DNA of 20,589 nucleotides from a virus. Position 1 is the stretch's first letter. Each line of letters opens with the position of its first letter. Below the pieces are notes generated by a model. That model was not told the origin of the DNA. It saw only the letters and a program-made list of their open reading frames with translations, and searched no databases. Below, one piece after another: positions 4,744 to 19,419 of this stretch. Made by a program: the position numbers and the translations under genes. Location of the stretch: positions 1-20,589 of the IMG/VR virus record IMGVR_UViG_3300011114_000520; one strand, given 5' to 3'.

Positions 4744-5093
4744 TCTCAGAAGACTTAAAGCAGCAAGCTATACGCTATCAGAAGAGTAGATCCTTTTCAC
4801 TCAATCAGAATCTCAAAGAGGAGCTGGTCGTATGGCTCAAGGCATACAAAGGAATGACTCTAAACAAAGGATGTGGCACATGCATACGCAATGCGATGAA
4901 TGATCTGATCTACTGGATGCAGACTGAGAAGGCTCAAGAGATCAGGCCAGCGAAGATACAGTTCATAGGAGTGAAGCAATACAACTATGACTCAATGAGC
5001 TACAATGATCTCAAGGCATTGGCTCAGGAGAGAGGCCTGAAGATGGGCCAAGCTCCAAAGAAAGCAGACCTAATCAAAGCACTTGAATCATGA
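4740..5093 (+). CDS. Phage protein with C-terminal HeH/SAP-like motif
   Basis: In this 117-residue protein, the last 35 residues (MSYNDLKALAQERGLKMGQ followed by APKKADLIKAL) form the helix-extension-helix of HeH/SAP/Rho-N type motifs, which bind DNA or serve as a docking module. The middle holds GCGTCIRNAMNDLI with a C-x-x-C and a preceding Asn/Lys-rich turn. It overlaps neighbours by ATGA on both sides. It may be a DNA-associated accessory protein, but the rest of the sequence gives no direct clue to its task. Confidence 0.55.
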   Translation: MISEDLKQQAIRYQKSRSFSLNQNLKEELVVWLKAYKGMTLNKGCGTCIRNAMNDLIYWMQTEKAQEIRPAKIQFIGVKQYNYDSMSYNDLKALAQERGLKMGQAPKKADLIKALES

Positions 5094-5809
5094 TAGTAGC
5101 TCCTATTCCGGTGCATGGCCGTAGACCATTACTCAAGTACACAATCTCAAGGCTACAGAAAGCAGGAGTTCAGGTGATCTGTATGGGCCATGATAGTGAT
5201 GATCAGGAGCTAGCACTATCCCTGGGGGCTGAATGGATCAGCATCAGCAATGATCCTCTTGGTGCCAAATGGAATGCTGGCTTCATGGCAGCCCGAAAAT
5301 ACGAGCCTACCGGTGTGCTATTCGTAGGATCCTCAGATTGGGTGTCTGACAACTACATTGCAGAGGCTGAGCGAATGCTTCCTCAATATGACATGCTCGG
5401 AAAGCTTGGATGCTATTTTACTGATCTTGGTCCAAGCAATATCCGTACTGTGAACTGGTTCGGATATGGCAAAGGATCAAGAAGCTATGAGCCTATCGGA
5501 ATTGGAAGAGTGTTATCAACAAGACTACTGAATAAACTCAACTGGCAGCCATTCGACAAGAGACTAAGCTCTGGCCTTGATTGGTCCATGTGGCTCAAGT
5601 CATTGGCATCAGATGCATCTGTGGGAATATTCGAGGATCCTGATCTGAAGCTGCTGAGCATATCAACACATGCCTGGGGAAACAAACACAGATTCACAGA
5701 TCACTGGACAGGATCACTGAGCAGATCATCAGAGAAACTGAGCAACAAAGATGAGGAGGAACTATTCAAATCATTCCCTGAGATCTACCTACTACACGAA
5801 CAGATATGA
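5090..5809 (+). CDS. GT-A-type glycosyltransferase (family 2-like)
   Basis: This 239-residue protein starts with the nucleotide-sugar-binding strand of GT-A enzymes (IVAPIPVHGRRPLLKYTIS), has the conserved SNDPLGAKWNAGFMAAR (about 53-69), then LFVGSSDWVSDNYI (about 77-90), where SSDW takes the place of the D-x-D metal motif. A later GLDWSMWL (about 162-169) could hold the catalytic acidic residue. No membrane helix or signal peptide, so it is cytoplasmic. It would transfer a sugar to a lipid-linked glycan, a protein or DNA; the acceptor cannot be read from the sequence. It overlaps the amidotransferase gene by ATGA, which suggests that the two act on the same sugar. One of three carbohydrate-acting genes in the window. 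Confidence 0.72.
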   Translation: MIVAPIPVHGRRPLLKYTISRLQKAGVQVICMGHDSDDQELALSLGAEWISISNDPLGAKWNAGFMAARKYEPTGVLFVGSSDWVSDNYIAEAERMLPQYDMLGKLGCYFTDLGPSNIRTVNWFGYGKGSRSYEPIGIGRVLSTRLLNKLNWQPFDKRLSSGLDWSMWLKSLASDASVGIFEDPDLKLLSISTHAWGNKHRFTDHWTGSLSRSSEKLSNKDEEELFKSFPEIYLLHEQI

Positions 5810-6897
5810 AACAATATAATACAATCCAAATGAAAGAATGCCCGAGATGTCTTTTCACTGAAGACATAGCCAAGATATCAGATAAGCAGTGTGAATACTG
5901 TGATCTGCATGATGACCTACAGGCCAAGGCAAGGCCAGAGGATCTAAATACTGAACTGCAAAAGATCCGCAAAGCAGGAGATGGAAAGAAATATGACTGC
6001 ATCATGGGGATCTCCGGAGGCCTTGACAGCTCAACACTGCTATACACTGCGGTGCGTTACTGGGGACTCAAGCCTCTTGTAATTCACTTTGACAACAATT
6101 GGAATGCTCCAGAGGCAATCCATAACATGACTATGCTGATCAGAAAGCTCGATGTGGATGCTATCGTTTACCATGTCAACAAGCAGGAATATGATAAGCT
6201 CAACGAATCATTCCTGTATGCAGGGGTTCCAGATGCCGACATTCCGAATGATATCGCAATGACCAAGCTGATGTACGATACAGCTCACAAATACAAGATC
6301 AAATACATTCTCAATGGTCATGACTTTAGAACTGAGGGATCAACTCCAAAAGGATGGACCTACATGGATGCCAAATACATCCAATCGGTTTACTTTGGAT
6401 ACACAGGCAAAGCCCTCAAGAACTATCCTCTATTCACATTCTGGGATCAGATATTCTATGCCATCAAAGGAATCAAGAACATCAGACCTTTTCACTATGG
6501 ATTCGACAGAGAAACCATGGAGACTGAAATGAAGAAACTGATTCAATGGCAGGACTATGGAGGCAAGCATTGTGAGAATGTGTATACTGAGTTTGTCGGA
6601 TCATGGCTGCTACCTAATAAGTTCGGCATTGACAAACGTATCGTTTACCTATCAGCTCAGGTGAGATCCGGCAAGATCACCAAGACACAAGCCCGGGAAT
6701 ACCTTGCCAACAAATCTGAGTTCGATGGTGATAAGCTCGGTGATAGCTTTGATAAATTCATGAGCCTGGTGAACATCCGCAAAGGTGATCGAACCAAATA
6801 TGCCCGATACAACTTCAAGGCATACAGACCATTGATATGGATCCTTGCCAAACTCAATGTAGTTCCATATACTTTTTACGTCAAATACTGTAAGTGA
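5806..6897 (+). CDS. N-acetyl sugar amidotransferase (WbpG/PseA-like)
   Basis: This 363-residue protein has a zinc ribbon at the N-terminus (C12-P-R-C15, C29-E-Y-C32) and an ATP pyrophosphatase P-loop, YDCIMGISGGLDSS, with SGGLDS at 70-75. The family (WbpG, PseA) uses ATP and ammonia to convert a sugar carboxylate to an amide or amidine, as in O-antigen or pseudaminic acid modification. Later motifs include PLVIHFDNNWN and YILNGHDFRTEGSTPKGW. In bacteria it works with HisH/HisF-like subunits that supply ammonia; neither is seen here, so the host would have to provide it or free ammonia is used. The gene has an ATGA overlap with a glycosyltransferase gene. The length is near that of cellular homologues and it appears intact. 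Such a gene in a phage replication region is unusual. Confidence 0.8.
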   Translation: MKQYNTIQMKECPRCLFTEDIAKISDKQCEYCDLHDDLQAKARPEDLNTELQKIRKAGDGKKYDCIMGISGGLDSSTLLYTAVRYWGLKPLVIHFDNNWNAPEAIHNMTMLIRKLDVDAIVYHVNKQEYDKLNESFLYAGVPDADIPNDIAMTKLMYDTAHKYKIKYILNGHDFRTEGSTPKGWTYMDAKYIQSVYFGYTGKALKNYPLFTFWDQIFYAIKGIKNIRPFHYGFDRETMETEMKKLIQWQDYGGKHCENVYTEFVGSWLLPNKFGIDKRIVYLSAQVRSGKITKTQAREYLANKSEFDGDKLGDSFDKFMSLVNIRKGDRTKYARYNFKAYRPLIWILAKLNVVPYTFYVKYCK

Positions 6898-7349: not shown

Positions 7350-7635
7350 GATATCCTTTGACTACGATGGAACCATCTCAACAGCCAAGGGAACAGAGTT
7401 CGCTCAGAGATTCATTGACAAAGGAGATACTGTATACATCATATCAGCCAGATCTCGCAAGGGAGGTATGCTCGACAAAGCAGATCAACTCGGAATACTT
7501 CATTCCAGAGTATATGCGACAGGATCCAATGAGGCTAAGGTGGCAAAGGTGAAAGAGCTGGGAATATCAAAACACTACGACAACAATCCAGACGTGATCA
7601 AGGCTCTTGGTAGTATAGGGGTATTATTTAAATAA
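7342..7635 (+). CDS. Minimal HAD-superfamily phosphatase
   Basis: A 97-residue protein from ATG 7342 (8-base overlap with the previous gene). SFDYDGTIS (5-13) is HAD motif I, with nucleophile Asp7 and acid/base Asp9. ISARSR (34-39) is motif II with Ser35, and HYDNNPDVI (78-86) is a motif IV-like acidic Asp80 site; Lys68 or Lys71 could be the motif III Lys. There is no cap domain, so the active site is open and could take large substrates such as 3'-phosphorylated nucleic acid ends, or a small phosphosugar. Small HAD proteins like this are frequent in phages. Next to the sugar genes a sugar-phosphate role is possible, but this is only an inference. Confidence 0.68.
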   Translation: MAKISFDYDGTISTAKGTEFAQRFIDKGDTVYIISARSRKGGMLDKADQLGILHSRVYATGSNEAKVAKVKELGISKHYDNNPDVIKALGSIGVLFK

Positions 7636-7667
7636 TATAATATAATATAATATAATATATATATATT
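7632..7667. repeat. AT-rich pentanucleotide and dinucleotide repeat
   Basis: Five tandem copies of ATAAT (7632-7656) followed by about five AT units. The repeat overlaps the stop codon of the HAD gene and fills the gap before the terminase genes. It is an easily melted segment in an otherwise mixed sequence. It could be an upstream promoter element, an origin-like unwinding element or a slippage product; no TAnnTTTG box lies in the gap. Confidence 0.9.
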
Positions 7668-7672
7668 AAAAG

Positions 7673-8184: not shown

Positions 8185-9387
8185 ATGGCAACAATCAAAG
8201 GATACAAACCACATGACAACCAGCGAATGATCCACAACGCTATCAATTCAGGAGCGCAGAAATATTATGCTTTGAATATTGGTAGGCAGTTTGGAAAAAC
8301 ATTGCTAGGGATCAATCAGCTTCTGTATTGGGCAATCAATGATCCAGGGTGCAAGATCGCATGGGTGACTCCCGTATACAAGCAAGGCAAGAAAGTATTC
8401 GCAGATCTGGAGAGGGCAGTCCGCAGCTCAGGTCTATTTGAGTTCAACAAGTCTGATCTTATAGTGAGTGGGTTTGGATCTACCATTGAATTCTTTTCAG
8501 GTGAGAGACCTGATAACATCCGAGGGAACACATTTCAATACATGATAGTGGATGAGATGGCATTCACCAGACCAGAGCTTTGGGATGAGGTCCTATCAGC
8601 TACTGTCATGGTCAAAGGAAAGAAGGTGATATTCATATCAACTCCCAAGGGAAGGAATCACTTTCATAGGATCTGTATGCAGCCAAACTATGATGAGAGG
8701 TATGCGTACTTTCATTTCACATCCTATGACAATCCCATGATAGATCCGCAGGAACTCAATGAGAGAAAGCGGTCACTTCCTGATCACATCTTCAGACAGG
8801 AATACATGGCCGAGTTCATCGACAATGCTTCAGGACTATTCAAGGATATCAGATCCTGCGTGGGTACCTGGTCAGCTCAAGGCAAGAACTATGCAGGGCT
8901 TGATATCGGTAGGGCAGATGACTACACTGTGCTGACCATACTGAATGAAGCAGGACAGATGATCTATGTCGGCCGATGGAGGCATGATGAATGGACCAAG
9001 ATCATCGATAAGGTAGAGGCACAGATCCGCAAGTACAATGCAGTGACTCTGATTGAGGTCAATAACCAGGGAGACATCTTCCATGAGATGCTGTCATCCC
9101 GGATGCGTAACCTGATCAATCCATTCACTACCACATCCAAAACCAAGCCGGTGATCATTGAGGATCTTGCCCTGGCATTTGAGCAGCAAGAGATCAAGAT
9201 CATGGAGGAGGGATGGCTCATTGATGAGCTTGAGAATTTCACGTATATTTACAATCCGAATACGAGATCAGTTCAATACTCTGCACCTATCGGGATGCAT
9301 GATGATGGAGTGATCTCACTCGCACTTGCATGGCATTGCAGAAAGCACTACAGCAAGCGCGGCCAATACAAGATACTAAGAGCATGA
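8185..9387 (+). CDS. terL: Terminase large subunit
   Basis: A 400-residue packaging motor. ATPase part: Walker A GRQFGKT (33-39), Walker B MIVDEMAF (120-127), and the coupling motif IFISTPKGRNHF about 152-163. Nuclease part: GLDIGRADDYTVL (about 237-249, first metal-binding Asp), IEVNNQGD (about 290-297) and a terminal MHDDGVISLALAW with the last acidic pair (about 371-383). Both domains are complete and the length is within the family range. It pumps DNA into the prohead and cuts the concatemer. The ATG follows a GC-rich palindrome, and the stop overlaps the next gene by ATGA. Confidence 0.93.
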   Translation: MATIKGYKPHDNQRMIHNAINSGAQKYYALNIGRQFGKTLLGINQLLYWAINDPGCKIAWVTPVYKQGKKVFADLERAVRSSGLFEFNKSDLIVSGFGSTIEFFSGERPDNIRGNTFQYMIVDEMAFTRPELWDEVLSATVMVKGKKVIFISTPKGRNHFHRICMQPNYDERYAYFHFTSYDNPMIDPQELNERKRSLPDHIFRQEYMAEFIDNASGLFKDIRSCVGTWSAQGKNYAGLDIGRADDYTVLTILNEAGQMIYVGRWRHDEWTKIIDKVEAQIRKYNAVTLIEVNNQGDIFHEMLSSRMRNLINPFTTTSKTKPVIIEDLALAFEQQEIKIMEEGWLIDELENFTYIYNPNTRSVQYSAPIGMHDDGVISLALAWHCRKHYSKRGQYKILRA

Positions 9388-10097
9388 AACAGATACAGGG
9401 ATCCTATCCAAAGAGCATCAGAGAATGTACTCCAGATCAGTTAACCAAATGGCTGATGCTGGCACCGATCATTCAGGACACAAATAAGACCTTGAGCAAT
9501 ATGCTTGATTTTCATTGTCAGCTGATCAGCATCTTCACAGGGCTATCAATGAATCAGGTTCGCAAGGTTCATGTAGATGATATTTTGAATTTGGCAACAG
9601 AACTGCTTAAGATGTTGGCTGAGTTTAAAACTGAGGAGCCATCAGGATCAGTGATCATTGATGGGAAGACCTATACCTTTGAGAAAAACTTTGAGTACAT
9701 TACTACTGGGCAGATCATTGACATGAAGCTGATCGAGGATGTATCACAGTCACCTGCTGAAGCACTCGCCATCTGTTATGTTGAGGAAGGGATGGAATAC
9801 TGCCAGGAGGATCTGCGAGGGAAGGTGTTGAATCCTAACAAAAAGAGGGAGGAGATCTTCAAGGCCAAGTTCCCAGGTGATGAGTTCCTGAATTTCTTCG
9901 CTTTTTTTTTGCGCGAATCCGAGAAGCGGAAGCTCGCTATCATGGGGATTCAATCAGCGAGGATGACAGTGATGAATCAGAATCTTCTGAGGCAACTATC
10001 AGAGATTCCGAATGGTTTGCCTGGACCAAGAACATCACGTACCTGGCTAAAGAAATTGGTAAAGATGTGGACACTATCACGCGTCAGCCATACGTGA
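9384..10097 (+). CDS. Tail assembly chaperone candidate, unshifted product
   Basis: The zero-frame product is 237 residues. The start is ATG 9384 in an ATGA overlap with the terminase gene. The first ~175 residues are mostly helical (LTKWLMLAPIIQDTNKTLSN, ILNLATELLKMLAEF), with an IIDGKTYTFEKNFEYITTGQ strand part, as in gpG-like tail chaperones. Codons 176-237, after the nine-T run, are compositionally unlike the rest (basic, no pattern) and overlap a far more protein-like −1 frame. The longer zero-frame tail may therefore be a by-product rather than a functional segment. See the frameshift product for the alternative reading. Confidence 0.55.
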   Translation: MKQIQGSYPKSIRECTPDQLTKWLMLAPIIQDTNKTLSNMLDFHCQLISIFTGLSMNQVRKVHVDDILNLATELLKMLAEFKTEEPSGSVIIDGKTYTFEKNFEYITTGQIIDMKLIEDVSQSPAEALAICYVEEGMEYCQEDLRGKVLNPNKKREEIFKAKFPGDEFLNFFAFFLRESEKRKLAIMGIQSARMTVMNQNLLRQLSEIPNGLPGPRTSRTWLKKLVKMWTLSRVSHT

Positions 10098-10174
10098 AGA
10101 CGTTATTCTGGTTGAATTTCTACAAGATAAAAACGGAACAAGATTACATCTTATATAAGAATGGCAGAGTTTGA
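9384..10174 (+). CDS. Tail assembly chaperone candidate, −1 frameshift fusion (gpG-T-like)
   Basis: If ribosomes slip back one base at the nine-T run, reading continues from GCG 9911 in the −1 frame to TGA 10172-10174. This adds 87 residues, giving about 263. The added part begins ARIREAEARYHGDSISEDDS, then has an acidic serine stretch and a structured segment (WFAWTKNITYLAKEIG, FWLNFYKIKTEQDYILY). The −1 frame opens at 9884, has no ATG, and fully covers 10098-10160, which otherwise holds no gene; it ends 14 bases inside the next gene, in keeping with the packed layout. Siphophage tail chaperones (λ G/GT) are typically made in this way. Sequence error in the homopolymer is the main alternative. 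Confidence 0.7.
9902..9911 (+). promoter_or_regulatory. Slippery T-run for −1 frameshifting
   Basis: Nine T followed by G. In the zero frame the codons are TTT TTT TTG, so T TTT TTG (9905-9911) fits the X XXY YYZ slippery pattern. The run could also cause polymerase slippage. It lies where the −1 frame takes over. Confidence 0.65.
9915..9951 (+). promoter_or_regulatory. Possible RNA structure downstream of the slippery run
   Basis: GAATCC (9915-9920) can pair with GGATTC (9946-9951), and GAG (9921-9923) with CTC (9933-9935); alternatively AGC (9925-9927) pairs with GCT (9932-9934) around a GGAA loop. It begins three bases after the slippery heptamer, close for a stimulatory hairpin (5-9 is usual). 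Not folded by program. Confidence 0.35.
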
Positions 10175-10688
10175 TTTCTTAGAAGGATTGGGATTCTCAC
10201 AGACTGATCTTGCTCAGCCTGAGACAGCGTATGACAAGTTCATCCTGGCACTTGGAAACTCAGTCACAGAGTCATTCAGAGATTACATCCGGGACAATGT
10301 AAACAACACAGGGGCATTGGCTCAATCTGTGGTGTACTTTCCAACAGGAGAGATGAGCTTTGAGATCCAAGCGGATCAATACTACAAGTTCCAGGATGAG
10401 GGTGTGAATCCTGTAGGGCAAAGTAAGTTCCCGACAAACTATCAATTCAAGCTGCCATTTGTAACCAAGGCCCATGCGATGGCCATCAGAGAATGGAAGG
10501 GATATGACATGAGTCATGCCTATGCATCGGCAGCAGCTACCAAGTTTAAATATGGATTGAAGCCTCGCAACATCACAGCTAATGTCATGACTGATGAGGT
10601 GCTTGATAAGATAGCAGCAGATCTGGCCGAGGTAACCGGGTTAATCTTTGAGGTGACATTCACAAAAAATACTGAAAAATGGCAATAA
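10161..10688 (+). CDS. HK97 gp10-like tail completion / head-tail joining protein
   Basis: A 175-residue protein. The pattern NTGALAQSVVYFP, then a strand (EMSFEIQADQYYKF) and QDEGVNP with PTNYQFKLPFVTK, resembles gp10/tail-completion proteins, in which an N-terminal helix is followed by 'T-G-x-L-x-x-S' and a β-rich part around an 'E-x-G' loop. These sit at the head-tail connector or tail terminator. Its start lies 14 bases inside the −1 frame of the preceding gene, and its stop overlaps the next start. The assignment is by pattern and could be wrong at the level of exact role; a structural role in the tail is well supported by the neighbours. Confidence 0.45.
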   Translation: MAEFDFLEGLGFSQTDLAQPETAYDKFILALGNSVTESFRDYIRDNVNNTGALAQSVVYFPTGEMSFEIQADQYYKFQDEGVNPVGQSKFPTNYQFKLPFVTKAHAMAIREWKGYDMSHAYASAAATKFKYGLKPRNITANVMTDEVLDKIAADLAEVTGLIFEVTFTKNTEKWQ

Positions 10689-16334: not shown

Positions 16335-16360
16335 AAAGGCCGGGTGACTGGCCTTTTTTT
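16335..16360 (+). terminator. Rho-independent terminator
   Basis: AAAGGCC (16335-16341), loop GGGTGACT, GGCCTTT (16350-16356), continuing into a run of seven T (16354-16360). A 7-bp stem with a T-tail, just after the adhesin pair and 10 bases before the tape measure start. It ends the upstream tail transcript in whole or part. Confidence 0.88.
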
Positions 16361-16370
16361 GAATAAAGAC

Positions 16371-18791
16371 ATGGCAAATAAAGAAGCAGTTTTTTCGCTA
16401 AGGGTTGACACAGGCAGCTCAGTACAGGATGTACAATCATTTGACAAGGCAATCAATGATCTAAATAAGGATGTGCAGAATGTACAGAAGACTGCGCAGA
16501 GTGGTGCCGGGCTGGATAGCTTTGATCAGAAAATGGCTGAACTCAATGCCAGGGTAGAGGCAGGTGGTATGACCATGCGCGAGCTGACTCAGACCATGAA
16601 GCAATACCAAACTATTGCTGCTCAGGCTGGGATGGAATCACCTGTAGGGCAACAAGCATTGCAGGCAGCTGCACAGCTAAAGGATGAGATCGGAGATTTG
16701 AAAGCTGCTACCACTGCTCTATCTTCTGACTTTGTTGGACTTGATACTGCACTCGCAGGAGTGGAGACTGGAGCAGCTGTATTCCAGGGCTTTCAGTCTG
16801 CTATTGCTTTGACTGGAGTGGAATCTGAGCAACTTGTACAAACAATGGTGAAGCTGCAAGCTGTTCAAGGTGTAGTGAATGCTGTGAATACTGTAGCAAA
16901 AAATCTGAACTCAGATGCGATTCTTGGGATACAAGTTCGGAATGGCCTTGAGAAAATTGGCAATTTTATTCGTACAGGTACAATCACAGGATTGACAGCT
17001 CAAGCAACAGCACAGGGTGCAGTTACAGCAGCAACAGCAAGCACAACATTAGCAATGAAAGCATTGAGAACTGCCATCATTGCCACAGGAATTGGTGCGC
17101 TTGTTATTGGTTTGGTAGCTGCTGCCGATGCACTTGGGTTCTTTGGTGATGAAAGTGAGAAAGCAGAGAAGGCTCAAAAAAAATTAGATGATCAGCTCAA
17201 ACTTACAAACGATAGGCTCCAAGAACAATCCAATTATACCAATGATTTGGTAGAAGGAACAGCTCGAGATACTGAAAGATTGGTGGCTCAAGCTAAATTA
17301 AGAGGAGCGAGTGAAGCAGAAATCACTAAAATAAAAAAGGAGCAGAGTGATCTTCAGAGACGTTTATTGGCAAATGATGTTGAATTTCAAAAGAAAGAAT
17401 ACTATAAAGCATTGAATAATCGAAAGATTAATCTGGAACAATTAACCAAATTTGAAGAGACTTATTTCGGAGCAAAGAAAAAATTATCTGAATTTGATTC
17501 TAAAGCAACACAGGATGCATTGAATGATCAAGTAAAAGCTCAAGAGGATGCACAAGAGAAACAAAAGAAAGCTCAAGAAAAAGCAGCAGAGGCAGCTAAG
17601 AAAGCAGCTGAGCAGCGCAAGGAAGATCTTAAATTAATTACTGATGCAGAAAAAGAATTTGCTTTGTCCTCTTTGAGTGATAAGGAACAAGAAATAATTA
17701 AGGAAGAGGAGAAATTTAGCAAGCTCATAAAACTTGCGCAAAAATATGGATACGATACAACAAATCTGAGACTGGCACTCAAGAATGCTATCAATGATAT
17801 TGAGGCAAAATATGCTCAACAGGAATTGGATCTGTCTGATCAAGTTCAAAAGGAAAAGAGACAAAAAGAAATTGAGACATTCAATCGCAAGGAAGCCTTG
17901 AGAAGAGAGGAGATTGCAGCTGAAGAGGCATTTTATGATGAATACAACGCAGCACTGTTGACTCAGCAACAAACTGAGGAGCTTGCTGTAACTGATAAGT
18001 ATTTTAATCTGATTGAACAGGCTAAAAAATACGGCCTTGATACAGCAGCTCTGGAAGAGAAGCAACAGAAAGAACTTGCTGATATCAGAAAGAAATACGA
18101 TGCTGAGAATCTACAAAAGAAAATTGATATCGGTCAACAGATCCTCAGCCAGGTATCTGCTTTGAATTCTGCCATCGCAGACATTGAGAATGCAAGGCTA
18201 CAGGAATTACAGAATCAAACGGATGCACAACTTGCATCATTGGATCAAGCGCAACAGCAGGAACTAAACAGCACTAATCTGACAGCTGAGCAGAAAGCAG
18301 CTATAGATCAGAAATATGCTGCTGCAAAATATGCTATTGAACTTAAGAACTTCCAGGAGGTAGAGAAGATTAAGAAGCAACAGTTTGAAAGAGACAAGGC
18401 TCTGCGCATTGCTCAGGTAGCAATCGATACAGCAACAGCAATTGTCAAAGGTATTGCTCAGTTTGGTCCTCCTCCATCTCCTGCGGGTATTGCTGCCATT
18501 GCATCAGCTGCAATCATTGGAGCTACACAGATCGCTGCCATTGCTGCACAGAAATATCAATCCGGTACTGCTCCATCATTTAATACTGGAGGAGGAGGAG
18601 GTGTGAGCGCAGGAGCCACAGCAGGACAACTCGGAGGCAACGCTGCCAACGCTAATCTGAATACTCAGCAACAGAATACAGCTGAGCTGATAGCACAAAG
18701 CAATCAAGGCGCACCGGTATATGTTCTTGAGTCTGATATCACAGGAACTCAGAACAAGGTAGCTATGCAGAATAAGCTAAGCGTTTGGTAA
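16371..18791 (+). CDS. Tail tape measure protein
   Basis: 806 residues from ATG 16371 (MANKEAVFSLRVDTGSS); the earlier in-frame GTG lies in the terminator hairpin and is rejected. A long coiled-coil body (Gln/Lys/Glu/Ala-rich, about residues 260-680), a hydrophobic segment IATGIGALVIGLVAAADALG (about 236-255) and a second one near 705-726 (GIAAIASAAIIGATQIAAIA), then a Gly-rich stretch. These are the hallmarks of tape measures, which set tail length at about 1.5 Å per residue, here about 120 nm. The expected partner is the frameshifted chaperone at 9384, seven kilobases away. The last 29 bases overlap the 3' end of the minus-strand gene. Confidence 0.85.
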   Translation: MANKEAVFSLRVDTGSSVQDVQSFDKAINDLNKDVQNVQKTAQSGAGLDSFDQKMAELNARVEAGGMTMRELTQTMKQYQTIAAQAGMESPVGQQALQAAAQLKDEIGDLKAATTALSSDFVGLDTALAGVETGAAVFQGFQSAIALTGVESEQLVQTMVKLQAVQGVVNAVNTVAKNLNSDAILGIQVRNGLEKIGNFIRTGTITGLTAQATAQGAVTAATASTTLAMKALRTAIIATGIGALVIGLVAAADALGFFGDESEKAEKAQKKLDDQLKLTNDRLQEQSNYTNDLVEGTARDTERLVAQAKLRGASEAEITKIKKEQSDLQRRLLANDVEFQKKEYYKALNNRKINLEQLTKFEETYFGAKKKLSEFDSKATQDALNDQVKAQEDAQEKQKKAQEKAAEAAKKAAEQRKEDLKLITDAEKEFALSSLSDKEQEIIKEEEKFSKLIKLAQKYGYDTTNLRLALKNAINDIEAKYAQQELDLSDQVQKEKRQKEIETFNRKEALRREEIAAEEAFYDEYNAALLTQQQTEELAVTDKYFNLIEQAKKYGLDTAALEEKQQKELADIRKKYDAENLQKKIDIGQQILSQVSALNSAIADIENARLQELQNQTDAQLASLDQAQQQELNSTNLTAEQKAAIDQKYAAAKYAIELKNFQEVEKIKKQQFERDKALRIAQVAIDTATAIVKGIAQFGPPPSPAGIAAIASAAIIGATQIAAIAAQKYQSGTAPSFNTGGGGGVSAGATAGQLGGNAANANLNTQQQNTAELIAQSNQGAPVYVLESDITGTQNKVAMQNKLSVW

Positions 18792-19419
18792 TAAATTCAC
18801 GCTGCGCTTTCTGATTGAACCAAGTATCAGAGGTGCTGAAAGATCCGTAAAGGCTCAGGAACTCCTGGGCCTTTCGTATGTCATTGGCTACCTTGAGATT
18901 CTCACCTTGCACATGATCGCATCCGTAGTAATTCAGATACATTGATTTGATAAAATGATTGTGCTGCTTCCATGTGATGCGATCAAATAGGCCGATGAGC
19001 TTATCTGAATCCATGAGTACAGGCTGATGGCACTCAAAATTCATGATCGGTTTGTTCACTGACTTGAGAAAATCAATAGTATTCTGCATTGCTTCCTGAT
19101 ATGTGGGTGCATGCCGTTCATTGATCTGCATCTCACCACTGCTCAGGATCCTATCAAAGCGGAAATTCGGGCCAAGAAAAAAGTCATCATTCATGTAGCA
19201 GAAGGTGCCATCCATATGCCAGGCAAAATGCATCATCTTATTGGTGACATCGCATCCTCTAATGGGCAGAGTGCTGATAGGAATGTGAATCCCATCAGGA
19301 TGTAGATCCCCAATGATATAAACTTCAGCATCAGGATCAAATGATCTCAGCCATTTGATAGAATGAGCCAGAACATCCACTTTGTTCTGCGCTTTGCGGT
19401 AGGGATAGACGTATTTCAT
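18763..19419 (-). CDS. Stealth-type sugar-phosphate transferase (moron)
   Basis: This 218-residue protein on the opposite strand has the Stealth family motifs: AEVYIIGD (31-38), FCYMNDDFFLG (73-83) with the Asp-Asp active pair, ECHQPVLM (129-136) with His131, and FSTSDTWFNQKAQREF (CR4-like). Stealth proteins transfer hexose-1-phosphate units to capsule or surface glycans (examples are CpsY-like and GlcNAc-phosphotransferases). The N-terminal CR1 motif of longer members is replaced by MKYVYPYRKA, so it is a short form. It is the only − strand gene, convergent with the tape measure (29-base overlap) and divergent from the protease gene, with its own promoter box. I infer a moron that alters host surface polysaccharide, for example to exclude related phages. 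Confidence 0.72.
   Translation of the reverse strand: MKYVYPYRKAQNKVDVLAHSIKWLRSFDPDAEVYIIGDLHPDGIHIPISTLPIRGCDVTNKMMHFAWHMDGTFCYMNDDFFLGPNFRFDRILSSGEMQINERHAPTYQEAMQNTIDFLKSVNKPIMNFECHQPVLMDSDKLIGLFDRITWKQHNHFIKSMYLNYYGCDHVQGENLKVANDIRKAQEFLSLYGSFSTSDTWFNQKAQREFITKRLAYSA

Follow-up and report, generated by a model that had tools for sequence, protein, structure and literature searches.

In phage lambda and in HK97, a −1 ribosomal frameshift gives two products with a common N-terminus, gpG and gpGT in the former and gp13 and gp13-14 in the latter. Lambda-type −1 frameshifting is widely conserved in long-tailed phages, where two-product frameshift genes are typically tail chaperones (PMC5009743), and annotated tail chaperone sites lie on average 26 nt from the zero-frame stop (PMC10885494). 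The reading frame can also be changed during transcription: runs of nine A or T make bacterial RNA polymerase slip efficiently in vivo, and one of nine Ts is used in this way by Thermus thermophilus dnaX (PMC5009743).

Here we describe a gene with a nine-T run (T9) in a 20,589-base virus record, analysed over its whole length and called the window below. The zero-frame product is named X and the −1 extension M. Like the lambda and HK97 pairs, X/X-M combines a short helical −1 domain, a shift in the −1 direction, a second frame without an independent start and a location within the structural module of a long-tailed phage. Unlike them, X/M lies behind the terminase large subunit gene (TerL) rather than between tail tube and tape measure, has no clear homology to their proteins, carries T9 in place of GGGAAAG and keeps its zero frame open for about 61 codons past the site, the first 14-18 residues of which are under dual constraint. 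With Thermus dnaX it shares a nine-base A/T run and alternative C-termini, but the genes are unrelated, and slippage truncates the protein there whereas the shifted frame holds an extra domain here. A further counterpart is found in genes 38 and 39 (phrog_32199 and phrog_38404) of the isolated Nonlabens phage P12024S, which have the same arrangement of an X-like gene directly behind TerL, T9 and an M-like −1 ORF; they differ in their extremely diverged sequence, in the TerL family, in the phase of T9 and in a second gene with its own ATG.

Results

The locus lies directly behind the terminase

The features of the locus are listed in Table 1. The first-pass annotation of this DNA had already delimited the −1 frame, its 87-residue extension and its end 14 bases inside the next gene, and these coordinates were confirmed. 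It had also remarked that the gene sits right behind the terminase and not beside the tape measure, which holds: the tape measure candidate begins about 6 kb downstream, and the same placement behind TerL is seen in three relatives of about 32 kb and in P12024S. The gene order in these three relatives, named partly from database matches and partly by inference, is TerS, TerL, X/M, gp10-like, tail genes, tape measure, protease, capsid and portal. The family matched by the gene downstream of X/M is that of P12024S_42, which resembles tail completion/Neck1 proteins (phrog_5). From the match to phrog_9483, a long-tailed virion with a tape measure is predicted.

Table 1. Features of the X/M locus and its surroundings in the window
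Feature	Position	Strand	Basis or remark
TerL (terminase large subunit), directly upstream of X	8185..9387	+	ATGA overlap with X
X, zero-frame product, 237 aa	9384..10097	+	ATG 9384 to TGA 10097
X domains: residues 1-176 to the run; about 14-18 constrained residues; tail without detectable constraint	9384..10097	+	
−1 frame ORF; extension M, 87 aa from 9911 (after FFF)	9884..10174	+	Stop ends at 10174
T9 slippery run, followed by G	9902..9910	+	Invariant in 354/354 complete relatives
T_TTT_TTT heptamer, zero-frame phase GCT TTT TTT TTG	9902..9908	+	Site from conservation; mechanism proposed
Dual-constraint segment: zero frame RxxAILGIQ, −1 frame AEARY	9911..9952	+	Conservation
Gene downstream of X/M (ATG 10161)	10161..10688	+	Weak match to phrog_29822 (E 0.005)
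Tape measure protein candidate	16344..18791	+	phrog_9483, E 1e-5

Elsewhere in the window, two adjoining genes at 5090-6897 resemble, on a reading of their sequence, glycosyltransferase-like and N-acetyl sugar amidotransferase-like proteins, which suggests that the phage may encode surface sugar modification. A TAATA repeat run (ataatataatataata, 7630-7668) lies between two genes that precede the terminase small subunit, and a minus-strand gene at 18763-19419 comes after the tape measure candidate and before the protease, a position kept in the three relatives of about 32 kb.

The nine-T run is invariant among relatives

Relatives were sought among viral contigs with X and TerL, which gave far more than 100, and further ones were found with a profile and two divergent members. 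We obtained 360 loci with X, of which 354 reach the site; in the other six the gene is cut off where the contig stops or has lost an internal part. All 354 complete relatives have a run of exactly nine Ts, always in one codon phase, at amino acid identities down to about 50%. Because many of these loci overlap on the same contigs, the 170 unique 270-base contexts around T9 are the fairer count, and all of them have nine Ts. By Fitch parsimony, none of the nine T positions changed over a tree with a total length of 14.8 substitutions per site, including the three zero-frame third positions, compared with 9-29 changes at the third positions just upstream. The run is followed mostly by G, otherwise by A or C; the codon ahead of it can be GCT (Ala), GGT (Gly), AGT (Ser) or AAT (Asn), all with T as third base. 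T9 is the sole T run of at least nine in the window, and a first-order Markov sequence of this kind would hold one with a probability of about 0.04; the real test of T9 is its conservation.

Among the 360 loci, no intact homologue with a single uninterrupted frame was found. Three loci that might have been taken for such (L068, L105 and L144) were rejected since they carry internal deletions in X or M, and are either defective phages or assembly joins; L105 still retains T9. One relative with T9 lies on a short MAG contig (L145), and no other copy was found in 388 sampled genomes of the phylum of that MAG.

Both frames are conserved past the run

The −1 extension M is conserved: 17 columns are invariant across 20 sequences. 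The first-pass annotation had noted that the −1 frame lacks any ATG, and among relatives this extends to GTG and TTG ahead of the conserved EWF motif in 161 of 163 copies, with two exceptions. In 31 of the 163 copies a −1 stop abuts the run and the −1 frame is open only from there on, so the shift can be assigned to T9. None of the 163 keeps its third frame open beyond 19 codons.

The zero frame had been described as patternless just after T9, and this was not borne out. We found a conserved R-x-x-A-I-L-x-I-Q motif in which R182, A185 and Q190 are invariant, and changes between +30 and +50 from the start of the run cluster at zero-frame third positions. In the −1 frame, synonymous variation is reduced after T9 across the dual-coded stretch and later returns to normal. 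The zero-frame constraint extends over about 14-18 residues, and the run is thus not simply the point at which X is cut short; only beyond about +20 codons does this frame look unconstrained, and its stop falls within the PYVK codons of M. We found no strong case for selection keeping the whole zero-frame tail open, as random synonymous codons leave it open with a median P of 0.13. Judged by these patterns of substitution, the first 14-18 or so zero-frame residues after T9 are dual coding. Collectively, conservation indicates that both frames are under selection and that the shift must occur at the run, and strongly supports a frame change at T9 that joins a zero-frame domain to a −1-frame domain, so that the gene very probably makes two proteins, X and X-M, differing at their C-terminal end.

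The slippery site has no conserved RNA stimulator

T_TTT_TTG, the heptamer proposed in the first-pass annotation, would as sole site leave the invariant T at 9902, the third base of the Ala, Gly, Ser or Asn codon, unexplained. Together with the dual-coded bases that follow, the conservation is best fitted by T_TTT_TTT, which is invariant in the zero-frame phase, as the putative ribosomal −1 site. A 6 bp downstream stem had also been proposed; it is not common to the relatives. RNAalifold on 35 sequences gave no consensus pairs in the 66 nt downstream or the 89 nt upstream of T9, and single-sequence folds differ among relatives, leading us to reject a conserved RNA stem.

A counterpart in Nonlabens phages

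In P12024S the run lies at 23578-23586, in another codon phase than in the window, and the M-like −1 ORF that follows the X-like gene is annotated as a separate gene. Genes 38 and 39 (23136-23830 of JQ823122), recorded as two hypothetical proteins, look like a single frameshift gene with T9. The run is also present in P12024L and in one further contig. The X proteins of the two groups align with an hhalign E of 3.4e-4, a score reached by 0/150 column shuffles, while the score between the M proteins was exceeded by one shuffle of 150.

The window group and P12024S also share the capsid protein (MCP, phrog_11320), a structural protein of 177-181 aa (phrog_19091) and the gp10-like family (phrog_29822). 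The two TerL (8185-9387 in the window, 21928-23136 in P12024S) belong to different families though capsid, 177-aa structural protein and X are shared, and this points to an exchange of the packaging module. Flavobacterium phage 6H gave a weak match to the X fold (E 1.9e-3) and was set aside; it has no T run there, and a −1 stop comes before the point at which the next ORF opens.

Database and structure comparisons of X and M

Pfam, PHROGs and NCBIfam hold no named family for X or M, and neither shows clear homology to lambda G/T or HK97 gp13; the score of M against the lambda T family, reached by 2/150 column shuffles, is just suggestive. In BFVD, the predicted structure of X (mean pLDDT 74.5) matched uncharacterised phage proteins, including I6R9M9 of P12024S (E 1.7e-6); a single hit carried the name tail assembly chaperone, and its E of 0.24 is not significant. 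Foldseek against the PDB returned nothing significant for X, and with VIA-align Z did not exceed 2.9 for X or 4.5 for M.

Discussion

On our reading, which we hold to be probable as a whole, X and X-M arise from T9 and work like gpG and gpGT, the slip being ribosomal. Most copies would be read straight through T9 to give X, and in a fraction the frame would change to −1 within the run, M replacing the zero-frame C-terminus. In the ribosomal step, which we slightly favour, two tRNAs would move by −1 on U_UUU_UUU; the preference stems from the fact that all tail chaperone frameshifts known to us are ribosomal. By likeness to gpG/gpGT in long-tail assembly, abundant X may coat the tape measure, and scarce X-M may recruit the tail tube; neither product of a G/GT-type pair would be expected in the virion.

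That X/X-M is a G/GT-like tail assembly chaperone is likely, by analogy. The comparison with gpG/gpGT, already made in the first-pass annotation, stands for the two-frame architecture and for the synteny in tail-bearing phages; together with weak similarity these carry the chaperone reading, and clear homology to the lambda and HK97 proteins is absent. As the position differs too and the likeness of M to lambda T is just suggestive, we say that the pair "works like" G/GT and do not file it with the lambda or HK97 protein families. The distance from the run to the zero-frame stop, about 186 nt against the 26 nt average of annotated sites (PMC10885494), counts against a chaperone.

A two-product gene of another kind, with X/X-M acting in packaging or head-tail joining, would suit the absence of clear chaperone homology and a place directly behind TerL and ahead of the gp10-like gene in both phage groups, but we think it rather unlikely: X stays while the TerL families differ and so does not track TerL, we saw no second overlapping pair with a slippery site ahead of the tape measure, and in long-tailed phages a two-product frameshift gene is typically a tail chaperone (PMC5009743). 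We give much less weight to the idea that M is translated on its own by internal initiation or re-initiation. The annotated start of gene 39 in P12024S is indeed an ATG overlapping the X stop codon, but start codons are lacking ahead of EWF in nearly all relatives, M is conserved just after T9, and separate translation leaves the invariance of T9 unexplained. Least credible of all is that the gene is a frameshifted pseudogene or an artefact of sequencing or assembly. Although homopolymers are in principle error-prone, hundreds of contigs, drawn from many samples, carry the same nine Ts and have both frames conserved, and the run is also present in the MAG contig and in the isolated phages P12024S/L.

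A serious rival, which the first-pass annotation overlooked, concerns the agent of the slip. In programmed transcriptional slippage, RNA polymerase would slip on T9, for instance adding a tenth U; a fraction of mRNAs would carry U10 (or U7), from which ordinary translation yields X-M, while U8 or U11 mRNAs would yield X with a short tail. We regard this as a possibility of somewhat less than even weight, nearly as well supported as ribosomal slippage owing to the exact nine Ts and the lack of a conserved stimulator. T9 falls within the range of conserved A/T runs (about 8-9 or more) at a frame junction that marks such slippage; a heptamer requires only seven, and the run is also nine long in P12024S despite its other codon phase. 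U_UUU_UUU is less prone to shift in E. coli than A_AAA_AAG (PMC5009743). The early closure of the third frame in every copy points the same way, as does, mildly, the fact that the two extra Ts (9909-9910) are unchanged, like only 5/54 downstream dual-coded sites, which would fit a need for the full run. This last point is weak, however, as first and second codon positions upstream have often stayed unchanged too. The two extra Ts belong to codons that both frames use, and might be kept by coding constraint alone. Moreover, T9 contains T_TTT_TTT in every phase, so the run itself also suits a ribosomal slip. To our knowledge no published tail chaperone uses polymerase slippage, and a literature search found no paper on one. 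More tentatively still, a polymerase slip on the exact nine-T run may set the ratio of tail-assembly proteins, as a transcriptional G/GT switch common to the aquatic family and the Nonlabens phages.

A large unannotated family of aquatic phages, together with P12024S/L, gains a likely tail assembly chaperone pair, which annotation pipelines overlook or break up. X/M is a clear example of dual coding past a slip site, and it offers a natural case, with a cultured representative, in which to ask whether a structural protein ratio can be set by slippage in transcription instead of frameshifting on the ribosome.
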